DNA of 28,560 bases, taken from the IMG/VR virus record IMGVR_UViG_3300038825_000967, positions 1 to 28,560 of that record; one strand, written 5' to 3'. This DNA comes from a virus. Below are positions 5,807-28,559 of the stretch, one piece after another. A model generated the notes under the pieces. The model was not told the origin of the DNA, did not search any database, and saw nothing but the letters and a program-made list of their open reading frames with translations. Each line of letters begins with the position of its first letter. Position 1 is the stretch's first letter. The position numbers were made by a program, and so were the translations under genes.

Positions 5807-5949
5807 TAACTTCTAATTGTAAAAATTTTAGTATAGTATTCTTTAACTAATCTTGCTTGTTCTTCTGAATCTTCAACAGTAGCTAATCTTTCAATTAATT
5901 CTTCATACATACTTGTATTTATATCTACGTTTTCTGTTTTAGTTCCCAT
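5806..5949 (-). CDS. Small acidic helical protein (47 aa)
   Basis: A short gene starting at ATG 5949 (MGTKTENVDINTSMYEELIE ...) and ending IFTIRS with TAA at 5806-5808. The stop overlaps the next start as TAATG, and the start lies inside the end of the gene before it (11-bp overlap). The middle (ELIERLATVEDSEEQARLVKE) is a strongly amphipathic helix. The perfect fit between neighbours supports it as real. Function is unknown; a small scaffold or portal chaperone is one possibility. Confidence 0.7.
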   Translation of the reverse strand: MGTKTENVDINTSMYEELIERLATVEDSEEQARLVKEYYTKIFTIRS

Positions 5950-6148
5950 TGTGACCACCTATAAAATCTAAATCATCTTCTACTACTTTTTTTGTTTTAA
6001 TCTTTTTCTTTTTAGATTGGTTTGTAAAATATTTTTCTTTAACCTCTTGGCTTAAATTATTTACTTGATGAGGTTTAAGATCACCAAAAGCCAAGTTCAT
6101 ATTTAAGGGTTTGTAGTCTTTGTATTCGTCTTTAACTTTCCAAGCCAT
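5939..6148 (-). CDS. Small basic phage protein heading the portal cluster (69 aa)
   Basis: I choose ATG 6148 (MAWKVKDEYKDYKPLNMNLA ...) rather than the ATG at 6190, because the extra 14 residues would be encoded within the late-promoter-like motif at 6160-6188. The protein has a proline-containing N-terminal half, a lysine-rich stretch (KKKKIKTKK) and an acidic end. Similar short ORFs near Bacteroidetes phage capsid genes begin with a W-K-(V/I)-K-D-Y-K pattern, but their role is unknown to me. It is the first gene after the terminator at 6252-6285. Confidence 0.65.
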   Translation of the reverse strand: MAWKVKDEYKDYKPLNMNLAFGDLKPHQVNNLSQEVKEKYFTNQSKKKKIKTKKVVEDDLDFIGGHNGN

Positions 6149-6159
6149 AATATAGTTTA

Positions 6160-6188
6160 TTATAAATATAAAAGTCATAATATTGTTC
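6160..6188 (-). promoter_or_regulatory. Putative late promoter P4 (portal cluster)
   Basis: On the minus strand this 29-bp element reads GAACAA, 14 spacer bases, then TATTTATAA. The same two blocks with identical spacing occur at 8659-8687, 9710-9738 and 18310-18338. Here it lies between the terminator at 6252-6285 and the first portal-cluster start at 6148, exactly where transcription must restart. Bases flanking GAACAA (TTGTGAACAA) also match the protease-side copies. Confidence 0.6.
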
Positions 6189-6251
6189 ACAACTTGTATA
6201 TTATATTAAAGTTTTTTTATATAATTATAATAATTGTAAAGTTTAGTTAAT

Positions 6252-6285
6252 AAAAAAGGGTTACCAAATAGATAACCCTCTTTTA
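6252..6285 (-). terminator. Rho-independent terminator after the tail-tube candidate
   Basis: On the minus strand GGGTTATC (6278-6271) pairs with GGTAACCC (6265-6258) around a 5-base loop, with one G-T pair, and is followed directly by six T residues. It begins about 22 bases after the stop of the 205-residue gene. Confidence 0.85.
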
Positions 6286-6306
6286 AATTGAGTAACGATT
6301 TATTAA

Positions 6307-6924
6307 TTATCCAGTAGTGATAGTTAAATTTGCTTCATCAGTTAAACCGTCAAACGGATATTTAGCTGTAGGTGATCCACCTGTACCAACTCCTGCTGTA
6401 GCATTTATCCAAATTAAAGGATCTTTTTCTTCACCTCTTAGTTCTAAAGTAAAACCTGTCATATCTCCTTTAGCAGCGCCAGAAACAGCAGTACCAGCAC
6501 TAACGTCCATTCCGTTATCCATACCTAACAAAAATAAGTTATCGTTGTTATCAAGAACAAAAACTTGACTTCTATTGTAAGAAATTAGTTTTAATTCATT
6601 GCTTTGTGCAACGCTTAATTTTTGCATAGTAATAGACAAAGTTTGTTCAAAAAATGTAGTACCTGTTGCAGGATCACTAGTAAAGTTTACTGTCATAGAA
6701 GATAAGTTTGGTCTTAAATCATATTGAAATACTGTTACAGCTCCACCACTTTGTATATCCCAGTTAGCAAAACCTGCTGTATCTATAACATTAGTATCAG
6801 TACCGTCAAAGGTAGCATTAGCTCTAATGTCTGAACAATATGACTTAACAAAGTATATACGCTTTAAACCGCCTATTTGATCTTTACAATCAACTAATAA
6901 ACCTTTTGTTAAATTACAAGCCAT
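6307..6924 (-). CDS. Candidate major tail (tube) protein or second major virion protein
   Basis: A 205-residue protein starting MACNLTKGLLVDCKDQIGGL, a beginning I recall from conserved virion proteins of Bacteroidetes phages. It is rich in predicted beta strands (IYFVKSY, GTTFFEQTLSITMQKL, NELKLISY, MTGFTLELRGEEK) and in Gly/Thr/Ala turns, with no membrane segment or enzyme motif. It stands alone between two strong terminators directly after the major capsid gene, so it can be made in large amounts. No other gene in the window looks like a tail-tube protein, which supports that role; a capsid decoration protein is the main alternative. Confidence 0.65.
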   Translation of the reverse strand: MACNLTKGLLVDCKDQIGGLKRIYFVKSYCSDIRANATFDGTDTNVIDTAGFANWDIQSGGAVTVFQYDLRPNLSSMTVNFTSDPATGTTFFEQTLSITMQKLSVAQSNELKLISYNRSQVFVLDNNDNLFLLGMDNGMDVSAGTAVSGAAKGDMTGFTLELRGEEKDPLIWINATAGVGTGGSPTAKYPFDGLTDEANLTITTG

Positions 6925-6950
6925 GTTATTTATTTTATATTATTAATACT

Positions 6951-6980
6951 AAAAAAAAGGGGTGATGTTTCACACCCCTA
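6951..6980 (-). terminator. Rho-independent terminator after the major capsid gene
   Basis: On the minus strand AGGGGTG (6979-6973 side) pairs with CACCCCT (6964-6958 side) around a loop of about 8 bases, followed by an uninterrupted T run (positions 6958-6951). It starts 14 bases after the capsid stop codon. Because the following gene has no visible promoter, some read-through is likely. Confidence 0.88.
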
Positions 6981-6993
6981 ATTTATCTATCTA

Positions 6994-7968
6994 CTATGTC
7001 CAAACAGAAGTAGCAAATACTCCATCTGTCGGTACCGCAGTTTGTACACCCATTGCAAAGTTCATTACAATTCTTATGTTATCTGAACCGTCAAATTGAT
7101 AAGTAGGAATTATAGATACTTCCGTGTAATCAGTAGCAGCGTTCATACCTACAACTAAATTCTCAGGGTAAGTAGCTATAATTGTGTCATTAAACATACC
7201 AGGACAAACATAAATAGGGAATCCCATGTAAGTCAATCCTGTAAATGTACCAGCTGCACCTACTTGTTGGTAAGTAGTTTCAGCAGCTAATTTTTGAGCA
7301 TATATAGCGTAAGTTTTTTGATTCATATAAAATCCAAAACCTGGTTTGCTTAACATACCTGAAGCGTTAGCTACAACAGAATTATAAACTGCTCCTAAGT
7401 CAGTTAATATATCATTAGTAGAAATAGCACCGTCTAAATCTACTTCAAAAAAGTCTTTACAAGCACTAGCGTCTGCACCTGCTTCATCTAAAGCTCCGTC
7501 ACTAGATTGAAAACCAATTCCAAAAGGTGAAGAACCTTTCCAAATCATATTTTCTATTTGCTCTCCTGCTTTTGCTGCAACTGAAGCTAATAAAAAGTCT
7601 TGAAAAGTTCCTGGTAGGTTTCCGTTTCTATCCATATTTTCACCTATCCAAGTTGGAAACACTGTTCCTCTACAAATTTCTTCATTTACTTTTAAATCAG
7701 TAAGTGTTAAAACTTGTTCAGTTAAACTTGTATCATTTTCAGATGAAAAACCACAAGCAGCAGCAACCACAGGATCACTAATGCCTAAATTTGTAATTCT
7801 AGCAGATTTATTTAATCCGTCTATTGTTCTCACATATCCTTTAGCAATTGTGTCAGGACTTTTAACCGCAGCAGTTACATAAGGAAGTGCTAATTTTCCT
7901 GCATAAGACGTATATGCAGAAACATCAATATCAAACTGATATTCTTTTGATAAATTGTACTTATTCAT
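6994..7968 (-). CDS. Major capsid protein (HK97-fold type)
   Basis: A 324-residue protein without signal or membrane segments. Length and composition fit the HK97-type capsid proteins of Bacteroidetes siphophages. The body holds helical and strand segments such as NMIWKGSSPFGIGF and a FYMNQKTYAIYAQKLAAETT helix typical of the P-domain spine. The C-terminal part (NIRIVMNFAMGVQTAVP) resembles the end of this family. It follows the scaffold gene by 15 bp and precedes a strong terminator, the expected setting for the most abundant virion protein. There is no obvious N-terminal delta domain, in keeping with the separate scaffold gene. Confidence 0.85.
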   Translation of the reverse strand: MNKYNLSKEYQFDIDVSAYTSYAGKLALPYVTAAVKSPDTIAKGYVRTIDGLNKSARITNLGISDPVVAAACGFSSENDTSLTEQVLTLTDLKVNEEICRGTVFPTWIGENMDRNGNLPGTFQDFLLASVAAKAGEQIENMIWKGSSPFGIGFQSSDGALDEAGADASACKDFFEVDLDGAISTNDILTDLGAVYNSVVANASGMLSKPGFGFYMNQKTYAIYAQKLAAETTYQQVGAAGTFTGLTYMGFPIYVCPGMFNDTIIATYPENLVVGMNAATDYTEVSIIPTYQFDGSDNIRIVMNFAMGVQTAVPTDGVFATSVWT

Positions 7969-7983
7969 TTTGTGTTAATTTAA

Positions 7984-8646
7984 TTATTTATTATTAATGT
8001 AATATGCTGCTCTTTGTTTAGCAGTCATTGTAGCTAAATTCGGTTTTTCCGATTTAGTGTTATTTTCAGGACTATGAGTAAAACCCTCACTTCCAGGTTG
8101 TTTTTCTAATTCAACTATTTGAGATTTAAGTTCTTCTACTTCTTCTAATAATGATGAAATCATATCTTTTGACATTTCTACCATTTCCTCTTCTTTAACT
8201 TCTTCTTTAACTTCTTCAACCTCTTCTACCTCTTCTGACATTTCTTCTTTATCCTCTCCATATACTGCTTTTTCCAGCTCGTCAATTCTTTTAGCTAAAG
8301 CTGAAAATTTATCTTCTTCTTCTTTGTGGTCAGGAGTATGTTCCATTTCTTCTTTTTCTTCTTCTGCTTCAACACCCTCTGCTTCTTTTTCTTCACCCAT
8401 GTCTAAAATTTTAGAATCTTCATCTATAGTTAGTTTAGCACCATCAGACATTGTGTAAGTACCTGCACCTAATGGTGAAGTTTCACCGTCATCACCAACA
8501 ACCATTACAGTAGAACCAATCATAAACTGGTCATCTTCGGTTGCTAATACTCTACCGTCATCTAAAATCATTTCAGCATACATTTTTACTTCTTTGCTTT
8601 CCTCTTTTGATAATAAGAGGTTTTTGATTTTTTCTATTGTAGTCAT
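7984..8646 (-). CDS. Capsid scaffolding protein with N-terminal SH3-like beta module
   Basis: A 220-residue, very acidic protein. Residues ~22-82 (YAEMILDDGRVLATEDDQF ... GAGTYTMSDGAKLTIDEDS) form a small beta domain that in Bacteroidetes phages often precedes the scaffold coil. Residues ~85-185 are Glu/Lys-rich coiled coil (LAKRIDELEKAVYG, SLLEEVEELKSQIVELEKQ) with an EEVEEVEEVKEEVKEEE tract encoded by tandem 12-mers. The tail (ATMTAKQRAAYYINNK) is a basic helix like those that bind capsid subunits. It lies between protease and capsid genes, the classical position, and has its own late-promoter-like motif 12 bp upstream. Confidence 0.85.
   Translation of the reverse strand: MTTIEKIKNLLLSKEESKEVKMYAEMILDDGRVLATEDDQFMIGSTVMVVGDDGETSPLGAGTYTMSDGAKLTIDEDSKILDMGEEKEAEGVEAEEEKEEMEHTPDHKEEEDKFSALAKRIDELEKAVYGEDKEEMSEEVEEVEEVKEEVKEEEMVEMSKDMISSLLEEVEELKSQIVELEKQPGSEGFTHSPENNTKSEKPNLATMTAKQRAAYYINNK
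8191..8235. repeat. Tandem 12-mer repeat inside the scaffold gene
   Basis: TTCTTTAACTTC occurs twice in perfect tandem (8191-8202, 8203-8214) and is followed by degenerate copies (TTCAACCTCTTC ...). On the minus strand it encodes the Glu/Val/Lys tract of the scaffold. Such a tract can lengthen or shorten by slipped replication without breaking the frame. Confidence 0.85.
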
Positions 8647-8658
8647 TGTTATCTTTTT

Positions 8659-8687
8659 TTATAAATATTAAACTTAAATTATTGTTC
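8659..8687 (-). promoter_or_regulatory. Putative late promoter P3 (scaffold/capsid)
   Basis: On the minus strand it reads GAACAA, 14 spacer bases, TATTTATAA; the upstream flank reads GTGAACAA as in P4. It fills the 47-bp gap between the protease and scaffold genes and ends 12 bases before the scaffold ATG. Confidence 0.6.
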
Positions 8688-8693
8688 ACAGGC

Positions 8694-9707
8694 TCAGCGT
8701 TTTACTGTCCTATTTTTTATAGCAGAACAGACTTTAGCAGCAGTTTCTTTGCTTCCGTATTGTTTCACCATATCTTTTATACACTGATCCCATTTATAAA
8801 CTGCTAGAGCTTGTCTATTTACAAAAGCAGCATACTCAACGTATTTATATTTTTTCTTGTATTTCTTTTTCTTTTTACCAAACTTATCTTCTACATATTC
8901 TTTCTTAACACTATCTGCATGAGTTTCACAAGCCATGTACCTAGTAACCCCATTTATTTTATGTATATGAAAACCTGAACAACCTTTAAACATTTCTGCA
9001 TATATTTTAGCTTCTTCTTTAGTAGCAAATAAAGGCTCTCCATCTAAACTACCAACAACTGATAATTCATTCTCTAATATTAAATCTCTTATTTTACCTA
9101 GTGTAACCTCATCAGGACAATCAGTACAATCTTCTGCTAAATCTATAATATCTTTAGGCTTTGACGCTTCAATTAATTTATCTGTAAAATATCCCTCAAT
9201 GCTAAAACCTCTTACCTTGCCCTTTTTTACTGATTCCCAAATTTCATTATTATTTACTTTCATTTTAACAAACCAAGTTCCTATAGGTAGTTTATTAAAG
9301 CCATAAGAATTTGACTTGTCATTTTTCTTATCTTCTTTGATCCAACTCTCCACAACAGTCATGCCCTCAACAGGTACTTTATGCTCATAAGTAGCGCTAT
9401 TGTTTCTTAAACTAGACATAAATAGCTCCTGAGCTTGTTTTATAGTTTCTTCTGTAAAATATACAATATACTTTTCATCTTTTTCTTGATCGTATCTAGG
9501 AATCTCTTTATTAGGAATTAATACTGCCCCTACTAAAGTTTTTTGCTCTTCATCTAATTTAGCTAAAGTTAAGAATTGGTCTTTGTTAAAAAATACCCAG
9601 TTTTCCTCAATAGCAGGAAACTCTACTAAACTAATAGCCTCAACACCAAATCTATCTGCTTCTTCGTCTATAATTAGTTCTACTTTTTTTAGTTTTTCTT
9701 TGCTCAT
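8694..9707 (-). CDS. XkdF-like capsid maturation protease with C-terminal Cys/His module
   Basis: A 337-residue protein. Residues ~55-178 match the XkdF-type phage serine protease domain (KTLVGAVLIPNKEIPRYD, TYEHKVPVEGMTVVESWI, GTWFVKMKVNNNEIWESVKK, VRGFSIEGYF). His109 and Ser169 are the likely catalytic pair. The C-terminal third holds a compact Cys/His cluster (C243, H247, H249, C260, H263 in GCSGFHIHKINGVTRYMACE), then a lysine-rich run and a helical end (AAKVCSAIKNRTVKR). The role is cleavage of scaffold and capsid precursors during prohead maturation. The next gene is the scaffold and then the capsid gene, as expected. The protein is longer than a bare protease because of the added C-terminal part. 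Confidence 0.88.
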   Translation of the reverse strand: MSKEKLKKVELIIDEEADRFGVEAISLVEFPAIEENWVFFNKDQFLTLAKLDEEQKTLVGAVLIPNKEIPRYDQEKDEKYIVYFTEETIKQAQELFMSSLRNNSATYEHKVPVEGMTVVESWIKEDKKNDKSNSYGFNKLPIGTWFVKMKVNNNEIWESVKKGKVRGFSIEGYFTDKLIEASKPKDIIDLAEDCTDCPDEVTLGKIRDLILENELSVVGSLDGEPLFATKEEAKIYAEMFKGCSGFHIHKINGVTRYMACETHADSVKKEYVEDKFGKKKKKYKKKYKYVEYAAFVNRQALAVYKWDQCIKDMVKQYGSKETAAKVCSAIKNRTVKR

Positions 9708-9709
9708 AC

Positions 9710-9738
9710 TTATAAATATAATTTGTTAATTTTTGTTT
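9710..9738 (-). promoter_or_regulatory. Putative late promoter P2 (capsid protease)
   Basis: On the minus strand it reads AAACAA, 14 spacer bases, TATTTATAA; a TTG just upstream (9742-9740) stands 19 bases before TATATTTA, the spacing of Bacteroidetes -33/-7 promoters. It overlaps the tape-measure stop codon and ends two bases before the protease ATG, so its transcript would be nearly leaderless. Confidence 0.55.
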
Positions 9739-11437
9739 ACAAGGTTGCTTGTAAGTTTAAATCATTTTGTAATGCTTGACTACTACTTACATCACTTTCT
9801 ACTACAAATGCTTGTACTGGTGGTGGCTCTGTTCCTATAGCTCCAAATACAGGTGCTACTGGTACAGTATCTTCTATACCTGCTCCTGCATTTATAGTAG
9901 GTGTTGATCCACCGCCCCCTGATTCACCTGGAACGTCTGTTTGTAATATATTTCTAACATTAGCTAAACCCTGTGCTATAATACCTACTGCTCCTATTGT
10001 ACCAAATAAACCACCCTGTGCTAATGCTTTAGTTGCCCCTGCATAAGTATCCATAGTTGCTTGTGCTACCGCTAAACCTTTACCTGCCTTTGTTTCTGCT
10101 CCTACTAACGCTGTAATACCTGTTAAAGCACTACCTATTATTTGTCTTCTTTGGTCTTGTAATGCTTGTTCTTTTATTGTATTTTCTTTGTCTAGCGCGT
10201 CTTTCTTTTTTTGATAATCTTCCTGTATCCTTGTTTTAGTGTCAGCTAAATCTTTTTCATTACTTATAGTTAAATCTGCTAGTTTAAGTAATCTTTGTTT
10301 TTCTTGTTCAAACTCTAATTCTTTCCTATCTTGTTCTTCAATACCTATTTTAGATAATTCTTCTTGAATAGATTGCTGTTCTTGTAGTAAAACATTTTCT
10401 TGTTCTATTTTTTCTTTATCTAATTTTTGCTTTCTTAATCCTACTTCTAATAAGGCAGTTTCAATAGCTTCTTTTTGTGTTAATAAGTCTACATTTTTAG
10501 AGTCAGCAGCTAATAAAGCTCCTATACTAGATAACTGTTTTTTTAAACCTTCTTCTTCTAGTTTTCTAGCTTTTTCTGACAATTCTGATAGTTTTTCATT
10601 TGCTTCTATTCTGTCTGCAAAACTCTTAGAAATATCATCTCTAATTGTTCTTTGAGCCTCTGCTTCTGCTTCTGCTTGAACAATTAATTGTCTTTGTTGT
10701 TCTTCTAATAACCCTAAATTGTTTTTAGCCCTTGTCATCCCTCTAGCTTGATTCAAAATACTATTAACTGTTACATCATCTAAAGTGTTACTAAATTCTT
10801 CATAAGTTACTTTAGCTATATTAACTACTTCATCTACTCCCTCTCTAAAATCTGTTACTATATTTTTAGTTGCTTCTATACCATCTTTAGCAACTTTTAA
10901 TAAAGATTCTTTATAAGCATCAACTTGTTTAGTCAATTTTTGTATTCTTTCTACATCACCTTTACCTAACCAACTTTTCTCCCATGCTAACTGTACTTGA
11001 CTTATAACTAGACCTATACCCATAAAAGCTGCTTTAAAAGGTAATAAAGCAAGTTTTAAAACATTATTCATTATTCTACCCAAAGCGTCAAAGTTATCAC
11101 TTGATTCGGTTGTTCTACTAAATATACTTTCAAATGTTGTTATAACTTTATTTAAAACTACACCAATTACATTAAAAGCGGTACTAACTGTATCTACTAC
11201 TGCTTGGTTTTGCATTAACGCGTTTGTAACAGCGTCTACTATTTTCATTATTATACCAAACCCTGCTGCCTTCATGGCAAAGCCTACGCCTTTAAAACCA
11301 GACGCTAAACTTGATGTTGCTGATTTTTGTTCTTTAGTAGTTTTACCTAAATCAACAACCTCATCTTTTATCTTCTCTAGGTTTTCTACTGCTCCTTTGT
11401 AATTTACTTCTGCTTCTAGTATAATTTTCTCTGCCAT
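9737..11437 (-). CDS. Tail tape measure protein
   Basis: A 566-residue protein with the standard tape-measure layout. A short N-terminal helix (AVENLEKIKDEVVDLGKTTK) is followed by hydrophobic segments (~50-70 GVGFAMKAAGFGIIMKIVDA; ~125-150 LKLALLPFKAAFMGIGLVIS), a long Glu/Lys/Gln-rich coiled coil (~230-430), a second hydrophobic patch (IIGSALTGITALVGA, GGLFGTIGAVGIIAQGL) and a Pro/Gly-rich end. It sets tail length and is ejected with the DNA. At about 0.15 nm per residue, 566 residues predict a tail near 85 nm, so a short siphovirus. No muramidase or peptidase domain is seen. Confidence 0.88.
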   Translation of the reverse strand: MAEKIILEAEVNYKGAVENLEKIKDEVVDLGKTTKEQKSATSSLASGFKGVGFAMKAAGFGIIMKIVDAVTNALMQNQAVVDTVSTAFNVIGVVLNKVITTFESIFSRTTESSDNFDALGRIMNNVLKLALLPFKAAFMGIGLVISQVQLAWEKSWLGKGDVERIQKLTKQVDAYKESLLKVAKDGIEATKNIVTDFREGVDEVVNIAKVTYEEFSNTLDDVTVNSILNQARGMTRAKNNLGLLEEQQRQLIVQAEAEAEAQRTIRDDISKSFADRIEANEKLSELSEKARKLEEEGLKKQLSSIGALLAADSKNVDLLTQKEAIETALLEVGLRKQKLDKEKIEQENVLLQEQQSIQEELSKIGIEEQDRKELEFEQEKQRLLKLADLTISNEKDLADTKTRIQEDYQKKKDALDKENTIKEQALQDQRRQIIGSALTGITALVGAETKAGKGLAVAQATMDTYAGATKALAQGGLFGTIGAVGIIAQGLANVRNILQTDVPGESGGGGSTPTINAGAGIEDTVPVAPVFGAIGTEPPPVQAFVVESDVSSSQALQNDLNLQATL

Positions 11438-11598
11438 ATTAATTTTATTTTTTTATATAGTTCTTTAAATGTTGCGGGAAACTCATCTGATCCTGTAGCA
11501 AAATCATATTTATAACCTGACGCTTCTAATTCTGTTAAAAGGTTAATTGATATAGGTATCAAATTACCTACTTCTTTTATGTATTTTTCTAGTTCCAT
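11416..11598 (-). CDS. Small protein before the tape measure (60 aa)
   Basis: A 60-residue protein (MELEKYIKEVGNLIPISINL ...) overlapping the end of the 1143-residue gene by 10 bp and the start of the tape measure by 22 bp. It is mostly helical, with an aromatic/acidic middle (YKYDFATGSDEFPATFKEL) and a basic end. The tight overlaps support a real gene. A helper for tape-measure folding fits the position, but the true G/GT chaperone pair appears to be at 17564..18306, so the function is unknown. Confidence 0.65.
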   Translation of the reverse strand: MELEKYIKEVGNLIPISINLLTELEASGYKYDFATGSDEFPATFKELYKKIKLIWQRKLY

Positions 11599-14500
11599 AA
11601 TAAAAATGCTAAATCTTGAAACAATATTCTATTTCCGTTTTGAAATATTGCACTTAATGATATTTTTGTGTCATCATTACCTACAGGTTGAGTTAATAAT
11701 TCAATCTTTGCTGTCCACATAACCTGTTCGTCTGCACCACCAATTATTAAAGGTTTCCAAAAGCCCTTACTGTCAAAGTTTGTAATATTTACAGTAGGTG
11801 TGCTAAAAGCTGAATCTTTGTTAGAATGATCTAAACTACCTCCTGCTGTTCCTACAAAACTAGGTGGTGCGCTTCTATTAACTAATAAAGTTAAATAAAC
11901 AAACGTTCCTACCTTACCTTTATTTGTTCCATCTAAAACAGTACCTAACAAAGTTACCCTAACATCTACCATACTTAAAGGGGGTAATAATAACATCTTG
12001 CGTGTATAGTTATTATTTGTAAACTCGTATTGTGTAGAATTGTCAAAGCTAGTTGCCTGAGCATAAATAGTAATAGAACGTGTCATTTCCGTATCTCTAC
12101 CCATAGCATTAATAGAAAAATTATTTTCTATATTAGGCATTAATGCAGGTATATAGCTATTGTTTATGCTGTTGTTAATTAGCATAGGTTGTTGAATAGG
12201 GTTAAATATATCGTCTGCAAAAGTTACAGTAGAGGTTGAAAAATCTGTATTAGTATAAGTAGCGTAACAATCACCAACCCCTGTAGTAGAGTTAGTTTCT
12301 ACAAATACCCAATCTGGGTTTTGTTGTGTACAGCATTCGTTAGTAATAGTTGTACTTGCTCCTGTACCGTTATCTGTCCAAGACATTAATCCTGAAGCAG
12401 ATATAGTAAATGTAGCGTCGCAACTTGTTTCTAGTCTTTCTATTACTTTTAACAATGTAACTTTAGTAGATTTGTTTCCGCCTACTAAATAATTATCTAC
12501 GCTTATAACCCTCCATAGACAATTTTTTATAAAGTATGTATTTTGAAAACCTGATCCCTCAAAGGTTCGTATATCTTCAGGTGTTAAATACATATAACAT
12601 TCCATTATTCTAGCCTCTTTATCATATATTTCATTAATATATTGCGCCCAATACTCATTGTAGTATCCTTTTAAACTTGGTGTATTACCAAAGTAATTAA
12701 AACAAAAACCTGTATTAAAGGAAGGGCTATAATAAGTCCAATTAAGTATTTTTGTGTCAGATACTACTCCAGTATTTAGATTATCTAAATTGTACTGAGT
12801 GCATAAAGGAAACTTATTTGTAGTTGGTGCACTAGGGTTTGAAAATTTATAAAACTCTAACCCAGTTAAAACGCTTGATATTATAGCGTTTGAGTATATA
12901 GCAAATTTATAAGAATTATTAGTAACAGGATTAGTTCCTGTAAATTCTACTGGAGTTCCTGAGTAGTAAAATAGTTTTGGTTTTAAGTCAGATAAAGGTT
13001 GGCTACCCTCGTTTAATTCAGCTCCAAAATTATAAGCAATAGCAACGTCTTGACCAGGCATAGCAGAGTTTATTCCTGTGTTATCCCATAACGGTACACC
13101 CTGAGCTATAAAAGGACTCATTACGCTAAAGTTTTCAAATTCGCCATTAGAAAAATCATTAGTCATTTGTTTGTTCCTTTCACCATATACTACGTTTTGT
13201 TGACTTGTATAACGTTCATTTAAAAAGTCGTTATCTTCTAAATCTTTAAATTTTAAGGACTTGCTTTGTAATTCATTAGTAGATTTTACTACTTGCTCTT
13301 TTGATAAATCTAGTTTTTCTGTCCAGTAATTAGTTGAACCACCATCTATAAAATCTTGATATGGTTCTATTAATAATAACTTTTCATTGTCAGGATCAGT
13401 TTTAATAATTAAATTAAACCTATTTACTAAATCTTTTATAAAGTCTGCTTGTGTTATGTCAGGCATATTGTAAAACATACTTACCTCTCCCTTTTCTAGT
13501 CCATTAAACATACCTACTTGACCATTACCTAAACTTTGAATAGATAAATTACTTATTACAGGAGTCCAAGTTTGAGTTAATAAACTGGCTGGGCTTTCAC
13601 CATTGTTAAAAAATACAACTAAATAACAACCAAAACCTGTACCTGTAGGCAAAGTGTGGACAAAAGTTAATTCGTGAGTTCCTGGAGTTAATGTTACGCT
13701 TTCAGTATCTAAAGCGTAAGAGTTACCCTCATAGCTTCTCCATTGAGCTATACAATCAATAGATTGTAATGTAGAGCCAGATGTAGTTTGAGTTGGTATT
13801 AATATAGTAAATTTTGTTTCTACTTCTACTTGACCGCTAGGTAGCAACGTGTCTACACCTGTTAAGTCTTGATTTTGAAAAAATATACCTGGAGCAAATT
13901 CTACTGGTTGGTCTATAAAAATAGGCATTGCCGATAACGTTTGAAACAACATATTGTTAGGATCGTAATCTTCGTTATTTAAAAGCAAATAGGGATATGA
14001 TATATTAGTTAAAGAGCCACTGTAAAAGTTTATAGGTGCTGATAATAACGTTCCTGTGTTTGTTCCTTTAAAACCTACAAAAGCCCCATTGTTACTATCT
14101 GTTGATAGTTTAAATCTAGTCTGTACTCTTTCGTGTTGAGGGGCTAACGTCATAAATATTCTACTAAACCAATTTGTATCAGTTACAGGTGTAGATTCAT
14201 TTGTGTCATCAATTCCTAAAAATGTACTTTTAATTTGATAACCTGTTTTTTGTGATATTATTCTAACTAATCTTTGTATTCTTATAGCAGGTTTTAACAT
14301 ACTAGGTCTTATAACTCCGTATTGATCTAAAGCATTTAAAACTGCTATATTATCTAAATTATAATTCTCATTTGTAAAGCCCATTTCATCTAGTAAATCA
14401 TCAGGCGACCAAAACATAGAAGAGCTTAAAGGTTGGCTAGAAAAACCATAATCTATTATAGGGTACATTATATCGTTAGTAGTAGTTGGTGTATCTTCTG

Positions 14501-15020
14501 TAGTAGTAACCCCTGTTGTCCAACTATTAATTACATTATCTACTGTTAACTTATGATCTAGTTGTTTGTCTTCTGTTATAGCTCCTGTAGAATCATTTAC
14601 ATTTATAAAAGCGTCTTGTAGTTTTTTGTCTTTTAAGTCTGTAAAAAAATCTGCTGTATTTCCAAATAAAGATACTTCGTATAATCTAGCGTTTAAATAT
14701 ATTGCTTTAAGTTGTATAAAACCTTTTAATTGTGGTACACTATCTATATATAAAATAGCTTCAAATTTTGTTTGAGCATTGTATATTAAAGTGTCTAAAT
14801 TAACATCAAAATAATTTTCAAAAAAGTCATTATTACGATTTGAAAAAGGTAGTTTAATTGTTTGACTAAAACTAGCTTTTCTTTGATCAGGGTTTTTTAA
14901 ATCTAACCAATTATAATTTACTACAACATTAGGAGCTTGTTGTAAATCTAACTCAAATTGATCTACATCAAAAGGTGTTGCGGTATCAGTTTGTCTATAT
15001 GCAACTAATCTTACGTCCAT
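11589..15020 (-). CDS. Large tail-tip / baseplate hub protein
   Basis: An 1143-residue protein, the longest in the window, with no signal peptide. The N-terminal region (QFELDLQQAPNVVVNYNWLD, RKASFSQTIKLPFSNRNNDF, AILYIDSVPQLKGFIQLKAI) is a pattern I recall from conserved large tail proteins of Bacteroidetes phages. It resembles hub proteins that start with beta domains joining the tail tube. The middle and C-terminal parts are beta-rich, Asn/Thr/Ser-rich, as in tail-tip or adhesin regions. Its neighbours are another large tail protein and the tape measure. The exact part (hub, Dit/Tal-like, central fibre) is inference. Unusually, it lies before the tape measure rather than after it. Confidence 0.75.
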   Translation of the reverse strand: MDVRLVAYRQTDTATPFDVDQFELDLQQAPNVVVNYNWLDLKNPDQRKASFSQTIKLPFSNRNNDFFENYFDVNLDTLIYNAQTKFEAILYIDSVPQLKGFIQLKAIYLNARLYEVSLFGNTADFFTDLKDKKLQDAFINVNDSTGAITEDKQLDHKLTVDNVINSWTTGVTTTEDTPTTTNDIMYPIIDYGFSSQPLSSSMFWSPDDLLDEMGFTNENYNLDNIAVLNALDQYGVIRPSMLKPAIRIQRLVRIISQKTGYQIKSTFLGIDDTNESTPVTDTNWFSRIFMTLAPQHERVQTRFKLSTDSNNGAFVGFKGTNTGTLLSAPINFYSGSLTNISYPYLLLNNEDYDPNNMLFQTLSAMPIFIDQPVEFAPGIFFQNQDLTGVDTLLPSGQVEVETKFTILIPTQTTSGSTLQSIDCIAQWRSYEGNSYALDTESVTLTPGTHELTFVHTLPTGTGFGCYLVVFFNNGESPASLLTQTWTPVISNLSIQSLGNGQVGMFNGLEKGEVSMFYNMPDITQADFIKDLVNRFNLIIKTDPDNEKLLLIEPYQDFIDGGSTNYWTEKLDLSKEQVVKSTNELQSKSLKFKDLEDNDFLNERYTSQQNVVYGERNKQMTNDFSNGEFENFSVMSPFIAQGVPLWDNTGINSAMPGQDVAIAYNFGAELNEGSQPLSDLKPKLFYYSGTPVEFTGTNPVTNNSYKFAIYSNAIISSVLTGLEFYKFSNPSAPTTNKFPLCTQYNLDNLNTGVVSDTKILNWTYYSPSFNTGFCFNYFGNTPSLKGYYNEYWAQYINEIYDKEARIMECYMYLTPEDIRTFEGSGFQNTYFIKNCLWRVISVDNYLVGGNKSTKVTLLKVIERLETSCDATFTISASGLMSWTDNGTGASTTITNECCTQQNPDWVFVETNSTTGVGDCYATYTNTDFSTSTVTFADDIFNPIQQPMLINNSINNSYIPALMPNIENNFSINAMGRDTEMTRSITIYAQATSFDNSTQYEFTNNNYTRKMLLLPPLSMVDVRVTLLGTVLDGTNKGKVGTFVYLTLLVNRSAPPSFVGTAGGSLDHSNKDSAFSTPTVNITNFDSKGFWKPLIIGGADEQVMWTAKIELLTQPVGNDDTKISLSAIFQNGNRILFQDLAFLLWN

Positions 15021-16450
15021 TAACTATTAGTTTTTACTTTGTTTGCGTATTCTAAATTAATTGTGTATTGTATTTTTATTTTATCGTTTACACTTGTTTT
15101 TTTTGTATATGTAGTATTAGTAATTATCATAGGGTATACAATACTATTGTCTGCTAATAAATGTACGTTAGTAGACGTAAACAATTCTTCTAACCAAGCC
15201 CCCTCATCTTCATTTAACCAATCACTATTTACTACTAATTTTCTTTTTGCTTCAGTAAATAAAGTTTCTCTACCTCTATCGTAGTTTTCGTAATCAAAAG
15301 TAGCACTATTCCAACTACCAACTACTTTTTCCATTTCTTCGCTTTTTATATCTATACTTTCTATAGACTTACCCCTAAAATTCATATAATCCCAACAACC
15401 TAACCTATTACGCCAAGCTAATCTAACATTATCATATCTACTACAACTTTGGTGTCTATCATCTATACCTGTTCTACTAGCTCCGTATCTATAAAAGTAA
15501 TATTTATCTGTTTCTTGATTACCAGAACCATCAGCTCCATATATAACATAATACGCCCAATCAGTAAACTCACTTGGTTGATTGTCAGGTTCGTCTAACT
15601 GAGATTCTAAATTATAAGTACCGCAACCAAAATACAACAAACTATTTTTTACATCATCAGCAGTAGCTTTACCGCCACTGGCTACATCATTAGTAAAGTA
15701 CTTAGTAGAACCTATTTGACCACCTGAGCTATTATAATATTCTATAGCCATCTTTACTAACGCATCTCCATCAGTAATTAACCCATCATTTATAAAGGCT
15801 ATTGTTAGTTCGTCTATATTTTCTGCTGCTGTGTTACCCCCTCTTACAAATTGTACCCTCGGAGCATTAGTTAAAAACTTCTTTGTTGCTCCACTTGGTA
15901 TATAATTTGTTAAAGGATTGTTTGTTCCGTCTATATCTAATCCCCCTACATTAGTAGCAGTTTTAGTAAAGGGTGTTGTTGCAGGTATAGAATATATTAT
16001 TTCACTAGCTCCATCTACACCTCCACTAGGTAAAGTTAAAACAGGAGCAGCAGTTTGACTTGTCGCTTTTTCATAACCCCCCTCTACTTTTATACCTACT
16101 ACTTGACTTGTATTTTGTGAATAGGAATTAGAGGTATCACTTATTCCTATTGAGTGTATACTACCATCTATTGTGTCTGCTGCAATATTACCTACATTTG
16201 ATTCTTGTGTTTCTAAGCTAGATCTAACTATTTTATGTATATCTATTATTCCTACACCTGCGTTATTTTTATGAACCTTAATAGTAGTTAACAATGTCCA
16301 TGTACTGGCGTTAGTTGTACTCTTGTATATTTTAGCAACGTATTTAAATTTAGCGTCATTTATAATTGATGTACTTTCTTTTAAAACAAATATCATAGGA
16401 TTATTTGCTCCTGCTAATTGATTTGGTTTTTGTTCTATTGTATACGCCAT
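15020..16450 (-). CDS. Tail-tip structural protein
   Basis: A 476-residue protein without signal or membrane segments. The start (MAYTIEQKPNQLAGANNPMI) and the later segment YDNVRLAWRNRLGCWDYMNF recall a family of Bacteroidetes phage structural proteins encoded beside the large hub protein. The predicted fold is mainly beta. It overlaps the start of the hub gene by one base (TAATG type) and likewise the gp10-like gene upstream, so all three are probably made together. A distal tail ring or baseplate protein is the likely role. Confidence 0.7.
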   Translation of the reverse strand: MAYTIEQKPNQLAGANNPMIFVLKESTSIINDAKFKYVAKIYKSTTNASTWTLLTTIKVHKNNAGVGIIDIHKIVRSSLETQESNVGNIAADTIDGSIHSIGISDTSNSYSQNTSQVVGIKVEGGYEKATSQTAAPVLTLPSGGVDGASEIIYSIPATTPFTKTATNVGGLDIDGTNNPLTNYIPSGATKKFLTNAPRVQFVRGGNTAAENIDELTIAFINDGLITDGDALVKMAIEYYNSSGGQIGSTKYFTNDVASGGKATADDVKNSLLYFGCGTYNLESQLDEPDNQPSEFTDWAYYVIYGADGSGNQETDKYYFYRYGASRTGIDDRHQSCSRYDNVRLAWRNRLGCWDYMNFRGKSIESIDIKSEEMEKVVGSWNSATFDYENYDRGRETLFTEAKRKLVVNSDWLNEDEGAWLEELFTSTNVHLLADNSIVYPMIITNTTYTKKTSVNDKIKIQYTINLEYANKVKTNS

Positions 16451-17055
16451 TACTTCTTACTTAAATTAATTTCTATTTTATCTGGTTGTTCTATTTCTAT
16501 TGAGTTATCTATATCAACTGCAAATGCTTCCGCTATCTCTGAGTTTAAATCTCCTATCATATCTTCATAAGGCTTTGTTATAAATCTAGTTCTTTCTAAA
16601 CCTCTTTGATATATACTTCTTGATATTAAGAATACTAAACTATCTTTTGTTATAAATCTTCCTGCTCCTTTGTTATTTTTCCAATCTTTCTGTATTCTAC
16701 CTTTAATACCTTTTATATCTACCCAACGTCTAATAGCTCTACGCAATCCCCCTCTTTGACCTGTGCCTGTACCAAATCTAAACGGACTACCTTGACCTCT
16801 AGCTCTACCACTACCACTAAAACCACCTGCCCCTTTTACACCTTGATCTACAAAAACCCAATAATCCTCTGCATTACCAAAGTCCATTTTAAACTTAATG
16901 CCTGTAGTAGTCTTTTCTATATCATAACTCATTTCATTAAATAGAGTTCCTTTAGCTCTTTTACCTTTCTTGTTTAAATTAGCTCTAGCCTTTTCTATTA
17001 GCTTACTACCAAAACTACTTAATATCGCTTCTATTTCTGTTGTTTCTATATCCAT
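16450..17055 (-). CDS. HK97 gp10-like tail completion / neck protein
   Basis: A 201-residue protein. Features of the gp10-like family of phage tail-completion proteins are an N-terminal helix (LIEKARANLNKKGKRAKG), a strand pair, then WVFVDQGVKGAGGFSGSGRA with Gly/Arg-rich sequence and PFRFGTGTGQRGG. The pattern V-D-Q-G-V-x-G followed by PF-F is typical of this family in Bacteroidetes phages. Position between tail terminator and tail-tip genes fits a head-tail joining role. It is strongly basic in the middle and acidic at the end. Confidence 0.72.
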   Translation of the reverse strand: MDIETTEIEAILSSFGSKLIEKARANLNKKGKRAKGTLFNEMSYDIEKTTTGIKFKMDFGNAEDYWVFVDQGVKGAGGFSGSGRARGQGSPFRFGTGTGQRGGLRRAIRRWVDIKGIKGRIQKDWKNNKGAGRFITKDSLVFLISRSIYQRGLERTRFITKPYEDMIGDLNSEIAEAFAVDIDNSIEIEQPDKIEINLSKK

Positions 17056-17567
17056 TATGTATTTCTATCTTCGTCACTAGGCTCAATAGGTGCGTCACAT
17101 AGTGAATTATGGTTATTAACTTGCATTGTAAAACTAGCTGACCAACCTGTTAGCATATTAGCAAACCGTACTGTAAAAGGTTCTGCGTTTATAGGTAAGT
17201 TTAAAACTACCTCACCAGGAACGTAACTATATTTCTTTCCACTATCTCCGCCTGAAGTTTGTACTGATAAATTTTGTCTAAACTCTGCTATAATGTCTTG
17301 CATTATTTGTAGCATTTCAGACCATACTTCCTCTCTATTAGTTAAATCTTCTTTTATCTTGTTCATAGTAAATACAGTAAAAGTGTAAGTCATAACACCT
17401 TTATCTATATTAGTATTACCTGGTTCTACATATAGTATAGGAAAATCTGATTGATCTAGTTTGTTTATATCAACTTCGTCTAACATACCGCTATGAAAAG
17501 AATTAATCAAAAAATGATTTGTGGCTATTGTATTAAAGTCGTCTACTATGTTTTTATATGTTATCAT
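17055..17567 (-). CDS. Tail terminator-like protein
   Basis: A 170-residue protein resembling minor tail / tail-terminator proteins, which cap the finished tail tube and join it to the head. Supporting segments are FPILYVEPGNTNIDKGVMTY, the strand TFTVFTMNKIKED and the helix VWSEMLQIMQDIIAEF, then a C-terminal strand set (AEPFTVRFANMLTGWSASFT). This mixed alpha/beta order and size match that group. Its ATG overlaps the TGA of the frameshifted chaperone as ATGA, and its stop overlaps the gp10-like gene start. Confidence 0.68.
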   Translation of the reverse strand: MITYKNIVDDFNTIATNHFLINSFHSGMLDEVDINKLDQSDFPILYVEPGNTNIDKGVMTYTFTVFTMNKIKEDLTNREEVWSEMLQIMQDIIAEFRQNLSVQTSGGDSGKKYSYVPGEVVLNLPINAEPFTVRFANMLTGWSASFTMQVNNHNSLCDAPIEPSDEDRNT

Positions 17568-18306
17568 TTATATTTATTATAATTACTTTTTTCAATATTA
17601 TTTTTGTCTTGTTGGTAGCTTAAATATGTAAACAATAACGTTATTTCTGTTTGTGTAATTTTCTCTATATCTAATATAGAAGATGACAAACCAAATATAA
17701 TATTATACCAACCCCATTTACCTGCTAAAGTTTTTTCTCCTTGTTCCTCATTACCTCCATCGAATAATTGTTTAAATCTTCCAACAAGTCTTTGCCTAAA
17801 TGAAAAAAAAAATCTATCGCAGATAGTGTTGTACTCATTGGTAACTCTTTAAACTTATCTATTTCTAATTCATCAGGATCATAAGGTTTTACGCTATAAA
17901 ATCTACCTGACTCTCTATCTATCTCTCTATATAAAACACTCATCACTCTATGTAAATTTTTATTTATATCTTTTCCGTATTCCTCTATATCTACAAACTC
18001 TCCTGTTGTTATTTTGCTTAAATTAGGAATAAAGCCATATTTTTTACCTTTAAACTTTATTCTCTTTTCTAAAACTGTTTCATTCTTGCTATTTACAAAT
18101 TTGTTTATTTTATCTACTAAAAGTTTCTTGTGTTTTAATTGTAGCTTTTTTATTAGCTTTTTATCAATCTTACAAAACATAGAAATAATCTCATCATCTC
18201 TAGTTTTTCTTTTAGTTTTTGCTATTTGTAAATATCTTTGATATTCTGCAATAGTAATATCTTTCCATTCTGTAGGCACTATAACCTCAAATTGTTCTTT
18301 AGCCAT
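17564..18306 (-). CDS. Tail assembly chaperone GT, product of a probable -1 frameshift
   Basis: The first 192 codons are those of the shorter chaperone. At the A6 run (17736-17731) a -1 slip gives 55 more residues starting TLAGKWGWYNIIFGLSSSIL and ending SNYNKYK, with TGA at 17566-17564 overlapping the next ATG. The extension has no start codon of its own but is open, protein-like and precisely fills the gap to the next gene. Its KWGWYN...I start is a pattern I recall from the second chaperone ORF in Bacteroidetes phages. In lambda, gpG and gpGT arise this way and load the tape measure for tube assembly. The fused protein would be 247 residues. Slipping is inferred, not shown. Confidence 0.75.
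17725..18306 (-). CDS. Tail assembly chaperone G (unshifted product)
   Basis: A 193-residue protein. The beginning (EVIVPTEWKDITIAEYQRYL) is typical of the first tail-chaperone ORF in Bacteroidetes phages. The middle is lysine-rich and the end helical (SAIDFFFHLGKDLLEDLNNY) before stopping four residues after the slippery run (EKKL, TAG). It lies 30 bp after large terminase, with a late-promoter-like motif ending three bases before its ATG. A T10 run within the gene is read through in frame. Most product should be this short form, with a minor fraction of the frameshifted form. Confidence 0.8.
   Translation of the reverse strand: MAKEQFEVIVPTEWKDITIAEYQRYLQIAKTKRKTRDDEIISMFCKIDKKLIKKLQLKHKKLLVDKINKFVNSKNETVLEKRIKFKGKKYGFIPNLSKITTGEFVDIEEYGKDINKNLHRVMSVLYREIDRESGRFYSVKPYDPDELEIDKFKELPMSTTLSAIDFFFHLGKDLLEDLNNYSMEVMRNKEKKL
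17731..17737 (-). other. Probable -1 ribosomal slippage site
   Basis: On the minus strand the zero-frame reads GAG AAA AAA CTT TAG. A lysyl-tRNA on the second AAA can move back one base and still pair with AAA, after which reading continues ACT TTA GCA GGT AAA TGG. A stop two codons later and the open downstream frame fit programmed slippage. It is not a canonical in-phase X XXY YYZ heptamer. Confidence 0.6.
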
Positions 18307-18309
18307 TTG

Positions 18310-18338
18310 TTATAAATATAAAATTGTTGTTTTTGTTC
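18310..18338 (-). promoter_or_regulatory. Putative late promoter P1 (tail genes)
   Basis: On the minus strand it reads GAACAA, 14 spacer bases, TATTTATAA, like P2-P4. It occupies the whole 30-bp gap between the large terminase stop and the tail chaperone ATG, ending three bases before that ATG. Confidence 0.55.
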
Positions 18339-20608: not shown

Positions 20609-20871
20609 TAGTATCTATGATTATGTTTATATTTATTTAATTCTCTTAATTGGTTGTTAAATTGTTTGTCTGTTTCTGCTTTTATGTGACAAGCTCTACA
20701 CAAAGCAATAAGATTTTCTATTTGGTTTTTATGTCCTCTCGGATCACCACCTATACCTCTAGCGTCTATATGGTGTATGTCAACTGCTTGTTTACTACAA
20801 TGCTCACATAGTATAACATCATCTATAACGTAATCGTGATAATCCATATATATCTTAATATACTTCTTCAT
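20608..20871 (-). CDS. HNH endonuclease
   Basis: An 87-residue protein with a compact HNH/zinc fold: CEHC (22-25), DIHHID (31-36), an Asn-containing turn (NQIENLIALC) and CRACH (58-62). The two CxxC pairs would bind zinc and the HH pair with Asn/His the catalytic metal. HNH proteins close to terminase genes often assist packaging by nicking or cutting DNA with the terminase complex; here three genes separate them. A homing endonuclease is less likely because the gene is tightly fitted (ATGA with the gene before, TAATG with the gene after). Confidence 0.85.
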   Translation of the reverse strand: MKKYIKIYMDYHDYVIDDVILCEHCSKQAVDIHHIDARGIGGDPRGHKNQIENLIALCRACHIKAETDKQFNNQLRELNKYKHNHRY

Positions 20872-21233
20872 ACTTTACAAGACTTTTCATATACCTTTTT
20901 AAGATTATTCATTATTTTTTTATTACATGGTGAACAGCTTTTCCATTGAGGGTTCTGACCAAATACCCCTTTATATAAAGTAGCTATTATAGTTTTTTCT
21001 TCTGCATTTAATCTTTGCCTTAATTCTATACCTGGAACTACCTCGTCATATATTTTTATCTCATCTTCTGTAAACTGTCTAATGTTTCTAAAATTTGGAA
21101 ACATTTGATTAAGTTTTTGTTTACGTTCCTCACAACCACAATCCTCACCTAATACTTTTTTTGCTAATTTGTCTATACCAGTAGCTTTTGTAAACTTTGC
21201 TATGTCATCTCCTAGTCCTTTACTTTTTGTCAT
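20868..21233 (-). CDS. Conserved cysteine-containing phage protein, unknown function
   Basis: A 121-residue protein starting MTKSKGLGDDIAKFTKATGI, a beginning I recall from proteins of unknown role in flavobacterial phages. Two cysteine pairs (DCGCEERK near residue 32; WKSCSPCNKKIM near 100) and a last cysteine (KSCKV) could bind a metal. The rest is helical and basic. It is coupled by ATGA overlaps to the 39-residue membrane gene before it and the HNH gene after it. I can assign no function. Confidence 0.65.
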   Translation of the reverse strand: MTKSKGLGDDIAKFTKATGIDKLAKKVLGEDCGCEERKQKLNQMFPNFRNIRQFTEDEIKIYDEVVPGIELRQRLNAEEKTIIATLYKGVFGQNPQWKSCSPCNKKIMNNLKKVYEKSCKV

Positions 21234-21349
21234 AACTTTAAAAATTTATATATTAAATAACTTATTATTGGTGTACTCATCATTATAGTAAATATGTTTA
21301 AATGAGGCTCACCGCATAAACCAAAGAAGTGCTTTATAAATTCAATCAT
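21230..21349 (-). CDS. Small single-TM phage protein (39 aa)
   Basis: A short gene from ATG 21349 to TGA at 21232-21230, reading MIEFIKHFFGLCGEPHLNIF then TIMMSTPIISYLIYKFLKL. It has a short amphipathic N-terminus, a CGEPH turn and one hydrophobic helix (~19-36). The FGLCGEPH...(T)P(I/L)(I/L)SY pattern matches small ORFs I recall from other Bacteroidetes phages. It has ATGA overlaps on both sides, which strongly supports it. Inner-membrane location is likely and the function unknown. Confidence 0.75.
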   Translation of the reverse strand: MIEFIKHFFGLCGEPHLNIFTIMMSTPIISYLIYKFLKL

Positions 21350-21867
21350 TTTAAACTTTTTAAATAATTCTTAATAAATCTAATTGACTTCCCTAGTGTA
21401 CTTCTATTTATCTTTGTCGCTTTACTCATTGTATTTAGACTATAGTTTTCCCTATAATATATCTTAAATACCTCTACATCAAACCAACTTAAATGCTTTA
21501 ACTTTTCCTCTATCCATTGTAATCTATCTTCTTGTTCCTCTAACTGCTTTATCTTTTCTTTAGTCAAAGGTTCTTTAGTATAAATATAAAATTCTTTTAA
21601 TTGTTTTTCATTATATTGTTTTCTGTACTTTTTATGGTAAGGGCTTGTATTACTTTGGTATTGATTTAACATTATTCTAACTATATAAAAAGTAAGTTGT
21701 TTTTTTTCTATTATTATTTTAATCTTTTCTTGATCTGCATTATATAAAGCTAATATTGTTTCGTGTAACAAATCTTCATAATCTGGATGCCTATTGCTAG
21801 TTATACGTTTAGATATATCTAACAAATTAATGTAACTTTTTTCTAAATATTCGTTTAGTTTTTCCAA
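21346..21867 (-). CDS. Sigma-70-like transcription factor
   Basis: A 173-residue protein. Residues ~15-45 (SYINLLDISKRITSNRHPDY, then EDLLHETILALY) look like sigma region 2, and residues ~125-170 (LSWFDVEVFKIYYRENYSLN then an HTH TMSKATKINRSTLGKSIRFI) look like region 4. The linker is Lys/Gln-rich, with no obvious region 3. The expected role is redirecting host RNA polymerase to phage promoters. It is encoded in the early/middle part ahead of terminase and structural genes, so the conserved motif at P1-P4 is a natural candidate target. Divergence is large, and it may be a sigma-fold regulator instead. Confidence 0.7.
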   Translation of the reverse strand: MEKLNEYLEKSYINLLDISKRITSNRHPDYEDLLHETILALYNADQEKIKIIIEKKQLTFYIVRIMLNQYQSNTSPYHKKYRKQYNEKQLKEFYIYTKEPLTKEKIKQLEEQEDRLQWIEEKLKHLSWFDVEVFKIYYRENYSLNTMSKATKINRSTLGKSIRFIKNYLKSLK

Positions 21868-22582: not shown

Positions 22583-23434
22583 TTATGTCGCTTTACAAAA
22601 ACAATCTGTTTCTATATCCATATCTAAATCATTAAATAAAGAAGCCTGTTGTTTATTTATATCGTGCTTATCTTTTACAACTTTAAAAGGTTGTTTTGAT
22701 AATTCTATTAATTGTTCTATACTAAAATTGTTTCTTAAATCAAATCTTGGTAGTTTTTCAGAACTATACTTATTTTCCATATCTAACCACCATTTAGCTA
22801 TACTAGGGTTTTCTTTTATTAATGTAAGCCTTTTTCTTAATGATTTTTTAAAACACAAATCACAATTACCCTCATAATCTTTTAAATCTAAATCAAAACA
22901 TTGTTTATCCCACCAATTACGAATAAAACTACTATCTACTTTTATATCATCACACAAAGGGTATATAATATTTTGTTGTTTAGCAGTATTACTTTTTCTG
23001 TGTCTTTCATCATATCTTATACCCATAGCAGTAATAACTTCTTTATAACCTAAATTTTTTACATATTTATTAATAGGTGTTTGTTTTAATTCTCTTGTGC
23101 AATTACTAGCAAAAACAGTTGGTATAGGATACGCTTTTAACATTTCTTCAAATGGTTCACCATTTCTATTTGCAGTTTTAAAATCTACAACTTTAAAATC
23201 TGTTCCTTTACCTTTTTCTAAATTTATTTTAGCCTCCAACCATACTACGCTTAAATTCCATTCTTTATCGCACCTATCTATAAATTGTAAAGTTTCTTCT
23301 TTTTCTTTTCCTGTGTTAGCAAATACAAATAATTTATCATAATCTTTATACTTATCATAATTATTAAGAAACTGCCCCATAAAAGCAGAGGTTCTACCAC
23401 CACTAAAAGTACAAACTAATAATTTATCTTTCAT
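22583..23434 (-). CDS. PP-loop ATPase, PAPS reductase-like
   Basis: A 283-residue member of the adenine nucleotide alpha-hydrolase fold. The PP-loop SGGRTSAFM is at 11-19, followed by VFANTGKEKEETLQFIDRC (37-55) and a downstream GIRYDERHR (138-146). Cysteines at 112 (NCTRELKQTP), 191/194 (NCDLCFKKSLRKR) and 278/280 (DCFCK) could hold zinc or an iron-sulfur cluster. True PAPS reductases reduce sulfate for cysteine; phage forms more likely adenylate another substrate, for example in nucleic-acid modification. DndC (DNA phosphorothioation) and IbrA are relatives of this type. A ParB-like protein is encoded nearby, as in the IbrA/IbrB pair. The substrate cannot be read from the sequence. Confidence 0.82.
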   Translation of the reverse strand: MKDKLLVCTFSGGRTSAFMGQFLNNYDKYKDYDKLFVFANTGKEKEETLQFIDRCDKEWNLSVVWLEAKINLEKGKGTDFKVVDFKTANRNGEPFEEMLKAYPIPTVFASNCTRELKQTPINKYVKNLGYKEVITAMGIRYDERHRKSNTAKQQNIIYPLCDDIKVDSSFIRNWWDKQCFDLDLKDYEGNCDLCFKKSLRKRLTLIKENPSIAKWWLDMENKYSSEKLPRFDLRNNFSIEQLIELSKQPFKVVKDKHDINKQQASLFNDLDMDIETDCFCKAT

Positions 23435-25147: not shown

Positions 25148-25180
25148 TTTGTTTTGTTAAATTTATTTTACATATATTTG
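25148..25180 (+). promoter_or_regulatory. Bacteroidetes-type promoter of the rightward operon
   Basis: TATATTTG (25173-25180) is a perfect TAnnTTTG -7 box, with TTTG at 25148-25151 upstream at 21-bp spacing. The first ATG comes four bases after the box, so a nearly leaderless message is expected if that ATG is used. Confidence 0.65.
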
Positions 25181-28556: not shown

Positions 28557-28559
28557 TAT
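28462..28559. repeat. Right copy of terminal direct repeat
   Basis: Identical to positions 1-98. The window's last base (28560, C) differs from the matching base 99 (T). On the minus strand that difference would change the last codon of the 62-residue gene from AAA (Lys) to AGA (Arg). Confidence 0.95.

Follow-up and report, generated by a model that had tools for sequence, protein, structure and literature searches.

Bipartite motifs before the late genes of uncultured Bacteroidota phages: putative promoters for a phage-encoded ECF-like sigma factor

Introduction

How are late genes switched on in a phage whose structural genes are each preceded by the same short, two-part sequence, and which sigma factor reads it? 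This question is raised by a family of uncultured viruses of Bacteroidota bacteria, represented here by 28,560 nt of IMG/VR record IMGVR_UViG_3300038825_000967 (positions 1 to 28,560; the whole stretch of DNA analysed, hereafter the window). The record begins and ends with a 98-bp direct repeat (1-98 and 28462-28559), so the window probably represents an entire genome of ~28.46 kb that is terminally redundant or was assembled as a circle; nine related records also carry repeats (26-128 bp) at their ends. No host was assigned, because a capsid-alignment search of genome contigs gave no relatives. At 22583-23434, a 283-aa gene, whose product starts with an SGGRTSA motif and is PAPS-reductase-like by eye, had no match among 27 related records and is, by this comparison, a window-specific insertion. 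A first-pass annotation, made from the letters of this DNA, had described four copies of the two-block element and proposed a late promoter family read by a sigma-like protein of the phage; here, we followed up this proposal by computational analysis.

Results

Four exact copies in the window

The motif RAACAA-N14-TATTTATAA occurs in four exact copies in the window, all on the minus strand, and both the coordinates and the 14-base spacing first given for them were reproduced exactly. The copies, the genes that they are predicted to drive, and the neighbouring terminator are as follows:

18310..18338, minus strand: P1, putative late promoter, GAACAA-N14-TATTTATAA; ATG of gene 18306..17725 lies 3 nt downstream
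17725..18306, minus strand: gene predicted to be driven by P1, first after TerL, tail-chaperone-like (phrog_32199, E 2.7e-17)
9710..9738, minus strand: P2, putative late promoter, AAACAA-N14-TATTTATAA; ATG of the head maturation protease gene lies 2 nt downstream
8694..9707, minus strand: head maturation protease (annotation match), predicted to be driven by P2
8659..8687, minus strand: P3, putative late promoter, GAACAA-N14-TATTTATAA; ATG of the scaffold-like gene lies 12 nt downstream
7984..8646, minus strand: scaffold-like gene predicted to be driven by P3, followed by the major capsid protein gene (7968..6994)
6160..6188, minus strand: P4, putative late promoter, GAACAA-N14-TATTTATAA; ATG of the 69-aa gene at the head of the portal cluster lies 11 nt downstream
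5939..6148, minus strand: 69-aa gene predicted to be driven by P4, start of the portal cluster
6251..6285, minus strand: intrinsic terminator directly upstream of P4, 15-pair stem and U-run (z -3.9)

In 300 dinucleotide shuffles, a check that the first-pass annotation had itself suggested, the exact motif occurred at a mean of 0.003 copies per shuffled window (maximum 1) against the four real ones, and at spacings of 5-30 any single spacing reached at most two copies. The four exact copies are not due to chance.

The strong terminator announced ahead of the 6160 copy is indeed present, as a 15-bp hairpin with a U-run at ~6285-6251 (z = -3.9); a second terminator lies at 6958-6979, directly after the capsid gene, which ends at 6994. 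Other parts of the earlier description needed refinement. The gene behind the 6160 copy, taken as the first of the portal cluster, is the 69-aa gene, which follows the terminator downstream of gp6924 and precedes the portal cluster. The agreement of the flanks (T[GA]A) is in part explained, at the 18338 and 9738 copies, by the preceding gene, whose stop codon overlaps the -35 block. Furthermore, the statement that no copy lies inside a gene body holds for the exact four, but not for a fifth site (21606-21578) within the sigma-like gene.

Conservation in group A

A capsid-protein scan gave 80 related loci (915 kb), in which the exact motif occurs in 68 gene-sense copies at spacing 14 and one at spacing 15; antisense copies, and copies at any other spacing from 6 to 23, were absent from these loci. 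With a weight matrix, built from 27 longer phage records, the A-type motif was detected at a score of 21 in 90 sense and 0 antisense sites among 21 group-A genomes (580 kb). In nearly every window-type genome these sites lie after TerL and before the protease, the scaffold and the post-terminator small gene. The P1 place carries a site in essentially all group-A genomes, and the B form described below instead in group B. Moreover, the four late-gene positions are kept in 20 relatives; absence of the motif before these genes in close relatives was one of the refutations that the first-pass annotation had named. The shared bipartite motif thus stands before late and structural genes, exclusively on the coding strand, and the matrix found no sites before early genes in group-A relatives.

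The group-A consensus is RAAC(A/g)A-N10-TTTATATTTAT(A/T). The RAAC block at -35 is nearly invariant (C in 99%), and the late -10 block TATATTTA equals the host TAnnTTTG box with its last G changed to A, this final A being conserved in 99% of 73 sites. The contrast with host-type promoters drawn by the first-pass annotation is therefore real, but finer than it had claimed: it lies in this single base, together with the conserved AAAC block at -35. A canonical host-type box is found elsewhere in the window:

25173..25180, plus strand: host-type -7 box TATATTTG ahead of the rightward (early) operon; a TTG lies 21 nt upstream of the box

The distance from motif to ATG varies from 0 to 84 nt, whereas the spacing between blocks is fixed at 14 nt. 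In two relatives (L045/L046), 73 nt are inserted between the motif (8020, 11786) and the ATG of the small gene, with the motif intact, as expected of a promoter rather than a translation signal; the leader would be longer. Another record (G019) has two distinct capsid genes, one 73% and the other 55% identical to that of the window, along with two copies of the scaffold promoter, a duplication that is either real or a chimeric assembly end.

The phage-encoded sigma-like protein

The genome encodes a sigma factor of its own, at the place where a sigma-like protein had been pointed out, and both profile and fold identify it as ECF-type:

21346..21867, minus strand: ECF-type sigma-70-like factor (sigma2 + sigma4; TIGR02937, Foldseek), proposed reader of P1-P5

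With ~170 aa, it consists of sigma2 and sigma4 alone, as ECF (Group IV) factors do, and is matched by TIGR02937 over its full length (residues 3-169 of 172, E 8.8e-8); since its 31.9 bits fall below the curated cut-off of 42.9 bits, we call it ECF-like, a divergent relative, and do not file it as an ECF member. The same profile matched 19 of 20 sigma homologues (E down to 6e-9). An AlphaFold model of moderate confidence (pLDDT 76, pTM 0.47) shows a helical sigma2-linker-sigma4 arrangement, for which the best 24 Foldseek matches in the PDB were all sigma factors, nearly all of them ECF. AAC is typical of ECF -35 elements, and the RAAC block contains it.

The sigma gene was detected in 27 of the 39 records searched, and the 12 misses are all fragments of at most 17.3 kb; all records of sufficient length carry it. 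A tblastn search of the protein against 50,697 phage records gave no match. Directly after the sigma gene in most relatives lies a phrog_32048 gene (20868-21233 in the window) with a CGC..RK..LN stretch, whose product is a candidate sigma partner.

A fifth, intragenic site

21578..21606, minus strand: P5, intragenic site, AAACAA-N14-TATTTATAC, a near-perfect copy within the part of the sigma gene that encodes the sigma2-sigma4 linker

P5, missed in the first pass, lies upstream of the terminase genes. Among 35 A1 sequences, its 11 codons have the lowest synonymous diversity of 163 codon windows (0.026, mean 0.276), and 0 of 20,000 amino-acid-matched resamples were as low. The homologous stretch in group B, which fits the B consensus partly, is likewise the lowest of 160 (0.045 vs 0.292, P = 0.001). 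Because it occupies the least synonymously variable stretch of the sigma gene, P5 is probably functional as a promoter; its transcript would take in the gene at 21233 and those that follow it, as far as TerS and TerL. The possibility that translation starts internally beyond P5 was rejected, as no conserved start codon is present there. A-type sites near the terminase operon were sought in group A2 and none was found, so the fifth promoter is not universal. In the P12024L group, described below, a promoter sequence lies directly after the sigma gene and before the terminase genes.

A second motif class in group B

In the seven group-B records, the A matrix found no A-type site. At the same four places these genomes carry RAACRA-N14-TATATACTATTA, with a -10 block different from that of A. 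A matrix built on this form gave 28 sense sites in the seven genomes, exactly four each, and 0 antisense, together with 0 in the A genomes; at the thresholds chosen, neither matrix picked up sites of the other class. In the early region of most group-B genomes (e.g., G014 at 24586), the B matrix also gave a weak hit (score 13-22, compared with at least 31 at true sites), which may mark a different class of promoter with early or middle activity.

Between A1 and B, identity is 86% for TerL and 75-85% for the portal-cluster proteins m5222 and m3015, compared with 52% for the sigma; it is also low for m18306 (35%) and m25061 (48%), so strong divergence extends beyond the sigma. In the sigma tree, B is nested in A1 (support 100/100) at the end of an exceptionally long branch (1.14 changes/site), and A2, more distant but sharing the A motif, lies outside A1 + B. 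These relations are most simply explained if the ancestor was A-type and B underwent a single concerted switch. We consider it more likely than not that the sigma and the -10 element switched together within A1, from TATATTTATAA to TATATACTATTA at all four sites and probably at P5, with the -35 fixed and the late mRNAs leaderless or nearly so. A constant -35 and a varying -10 would be expected if sigma region 4 were conserved and region 2 or the linker had changed, an assignment that we infer from the sequences. A host factor could also explain the concerted switch, because group B may differ by host.

The capsid gene shows another pattern. The major capsid protein (6994-7968 in the window) is 92-94% identical to that of the window in two group-B members (L006/L007) and averages 71% in A1 members; this phylogeny, at odds with that of other genes, suggests recombination at the capsid gene.

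A third class in Nonlabens phage P12024L

Through the capsid search, gene order and the annotation of P12024L, a link to an isolate was found. The capsid protein of Nonlabens phage P12024L is 27% identical to that of the window, and a sigma-70-region-2 gene stands right after its VRR-NUC gene, a synteny shared with the window. Its late genes are preceded by AAACAA-N15-CGTTAATATA, all of these sites standing before late genes and the four strongest having the ATG 2 nt further on, and uncultured relatives of P12024L gave 22 sense and 0 antisense sites at N15. Since profile comparison between the two sigmas was not significant, synteny and the shared sigma-70 label are what suggests their homology. 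P12024L and P12024S (Inhavirus) thus resemble the window family in capsid protein, sigma beside VRR-NUC, -35 block and a start codon 2 nt downstream; they differ in the spacing of 15, the CGTTAATATA block at -10 and a sigma too diverged to align by profile.

Discussion

We consider, with a probability of about 0.86, that the motif represents late promoters at which host RNA polymerase is directed by the ECF-like sigma that the phage itself encodes. The late promoter family proposed at the outset is favoured by the rigid spacing, the strand bias, the positions, and the motif classes of the sister clade and the isolate. Under this reading, TAnnTTTG promoters would serve the early genes, among them the sigma operon, and would be used by host RNA polymerase carrying the host primary sigma. 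The phage sigma would then join the host core enzyme, its region 4 binding the invariant RAAC(A/G)A block at ~-35 and its region 2 melting the TTTATATTTAT block at ~-10. Transcription would start 1-4 nt beyond the -10 block, often at or beside the AUG.

With start codons 2-14 nt downstream of the sites, a number of the late mRNAs are expected to lack a leader. The -7 box of F. johnsoniae extends from -12 to -5 (PMC6847099); if TATATTTA is set at these positions, +1 would fall one base after the 9-mer, and the protease, tail-chaperone-like and A2 scaffold mRNAs would have leaders of ~1-4 nt. In F. psychrophilum, 5.5% of mRNAs are leaderless (PMC9723704).

The same geometry could be used to argue that these are promoters of the host primary sigma, with TATATTTA as a weak TAnnTTTG box and the conservation stemming from strong host-type promoters with an AT-rich upstream element. 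TATATTTA matches TAnnTTTR at the flavobacterial positions (-12 to -5, PMC6847099), which places starts at the ATG, and TTG is found upstream in two of the four window sites. However, neither the A that replaces the diagnostic final G nor the nearly invariant AAAC is a host feature, the -10 block is replaced in group B and in P12024L, and the early rightward promoter retains the canonical TATATTTG; we regard this explanation as very unlikely. Replacement of the -10 block also bears on the idea that RAACAA is the operator of a phage non-sigma activator recruiting host holoenzyme to a poor -10 box. The spacing would fit an activator bound beside the polymerase, and some copies show a partial palindrome in their upstream part, TTGTGAACAA, but it is not kept in group A2 (TAAAAAACAA), a sigma is encoded in all sufficiently long records, and the -10 block changes in concert between clades with RAAC constant, placing the variable specificity where sigma region 2 reads. 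Such an activator is likewise very unlikely.

An RNA-level element for translation initiation or processing before late genes would account for the short distance between the sites and the start codons (2-14 nt), and upstream sequence rich in A is favoured in flavobacterial translation (PMC6847099). Nevertheless, the invariant block spacing beside a variable ATG distance, the motif intact after the 73-nt insertion, and the constrained copy inside a gene body (P5) make it barely credible. A likeness of a different kind was also rejected. The T4 late box is TATAAATA, and the reverse complement of the motif, TTATAAATA, resembles it; this candidate was set aside, since it faces away from the genes.

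Transcription of late genes under phage-encoded sigmas is established, and divergence of sigma and promoter has been seen in Salmonella phage 7-11 and phiEco32 (PMC8948821). The 7-11 late promoters (GTAAtg-(16)-aCTA), read by the phage sigma SaPh711_gp47, resemble the sigma-read promoters proposed here: they are bipartite (-35/-10), of low copy number and placed before structural genes, they depend on a phage sigma with host core RNA polymerase, and a related phage has another sigma-promoter pair at comparable places in its genome. The 7-11 system differs in its sequences, host phylum and sigma family, and neither leaderless geometry nor an intragenic promoter is reported in the available portion of PMC8948821. 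The phiEco32 sigma, gp36, likewise drives late genes, from tAATGTAtA promoters (PMC8948821); these are single elements without a -35, and gp36 has no region 4 homology, whereas the window family keeps its -35 between classes. The sigmas of 7-11 and phiEco32 share 15% identity (PMC8948821), and the switch in the window family is caught at 86% TerL identity.

Xpf of the B. subtilis prophage PBSX is also a small sigma2-sigma4 (Group IV) protein and the positive control factor of a phage element (PMC10141391); it belongs to a defective prophage of a Firmicute, and the likeness drawn here is one of description. In flavobacteria, the primary-sigma promoter is TTTG / TAnnTTTG, and an ECF motif, SM6, carries a CGT box (PMC6847099, PMC9723704). 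The late sites share the -10 geometry, and CGTTA, the form found in P12024L, is similar to the CGT box of the ECF motif; the late sites of the window family differ in ending in TTTA, not TTTG, and in having AAAC at -35. In the open-access papers searched, we found no report of a sigma-dependent late regulon of such kind in a Bacteroidota phage.

In brief, the A, B and Inhavirus sigma-promoter pairs are natural sets with one part fixed and one changed, on which one can test how the specificity of a regulator is altered along with that of its full set of targets while function is kept. They offer candidate orthogonal sigma-promoter pairs for flavobacteria, and late operons may become predictable in many uncultured phages. 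If the proposed reading is true, the late mRNAs of these phages would have no leader or almost none, which is rare among the Bacteroidota.
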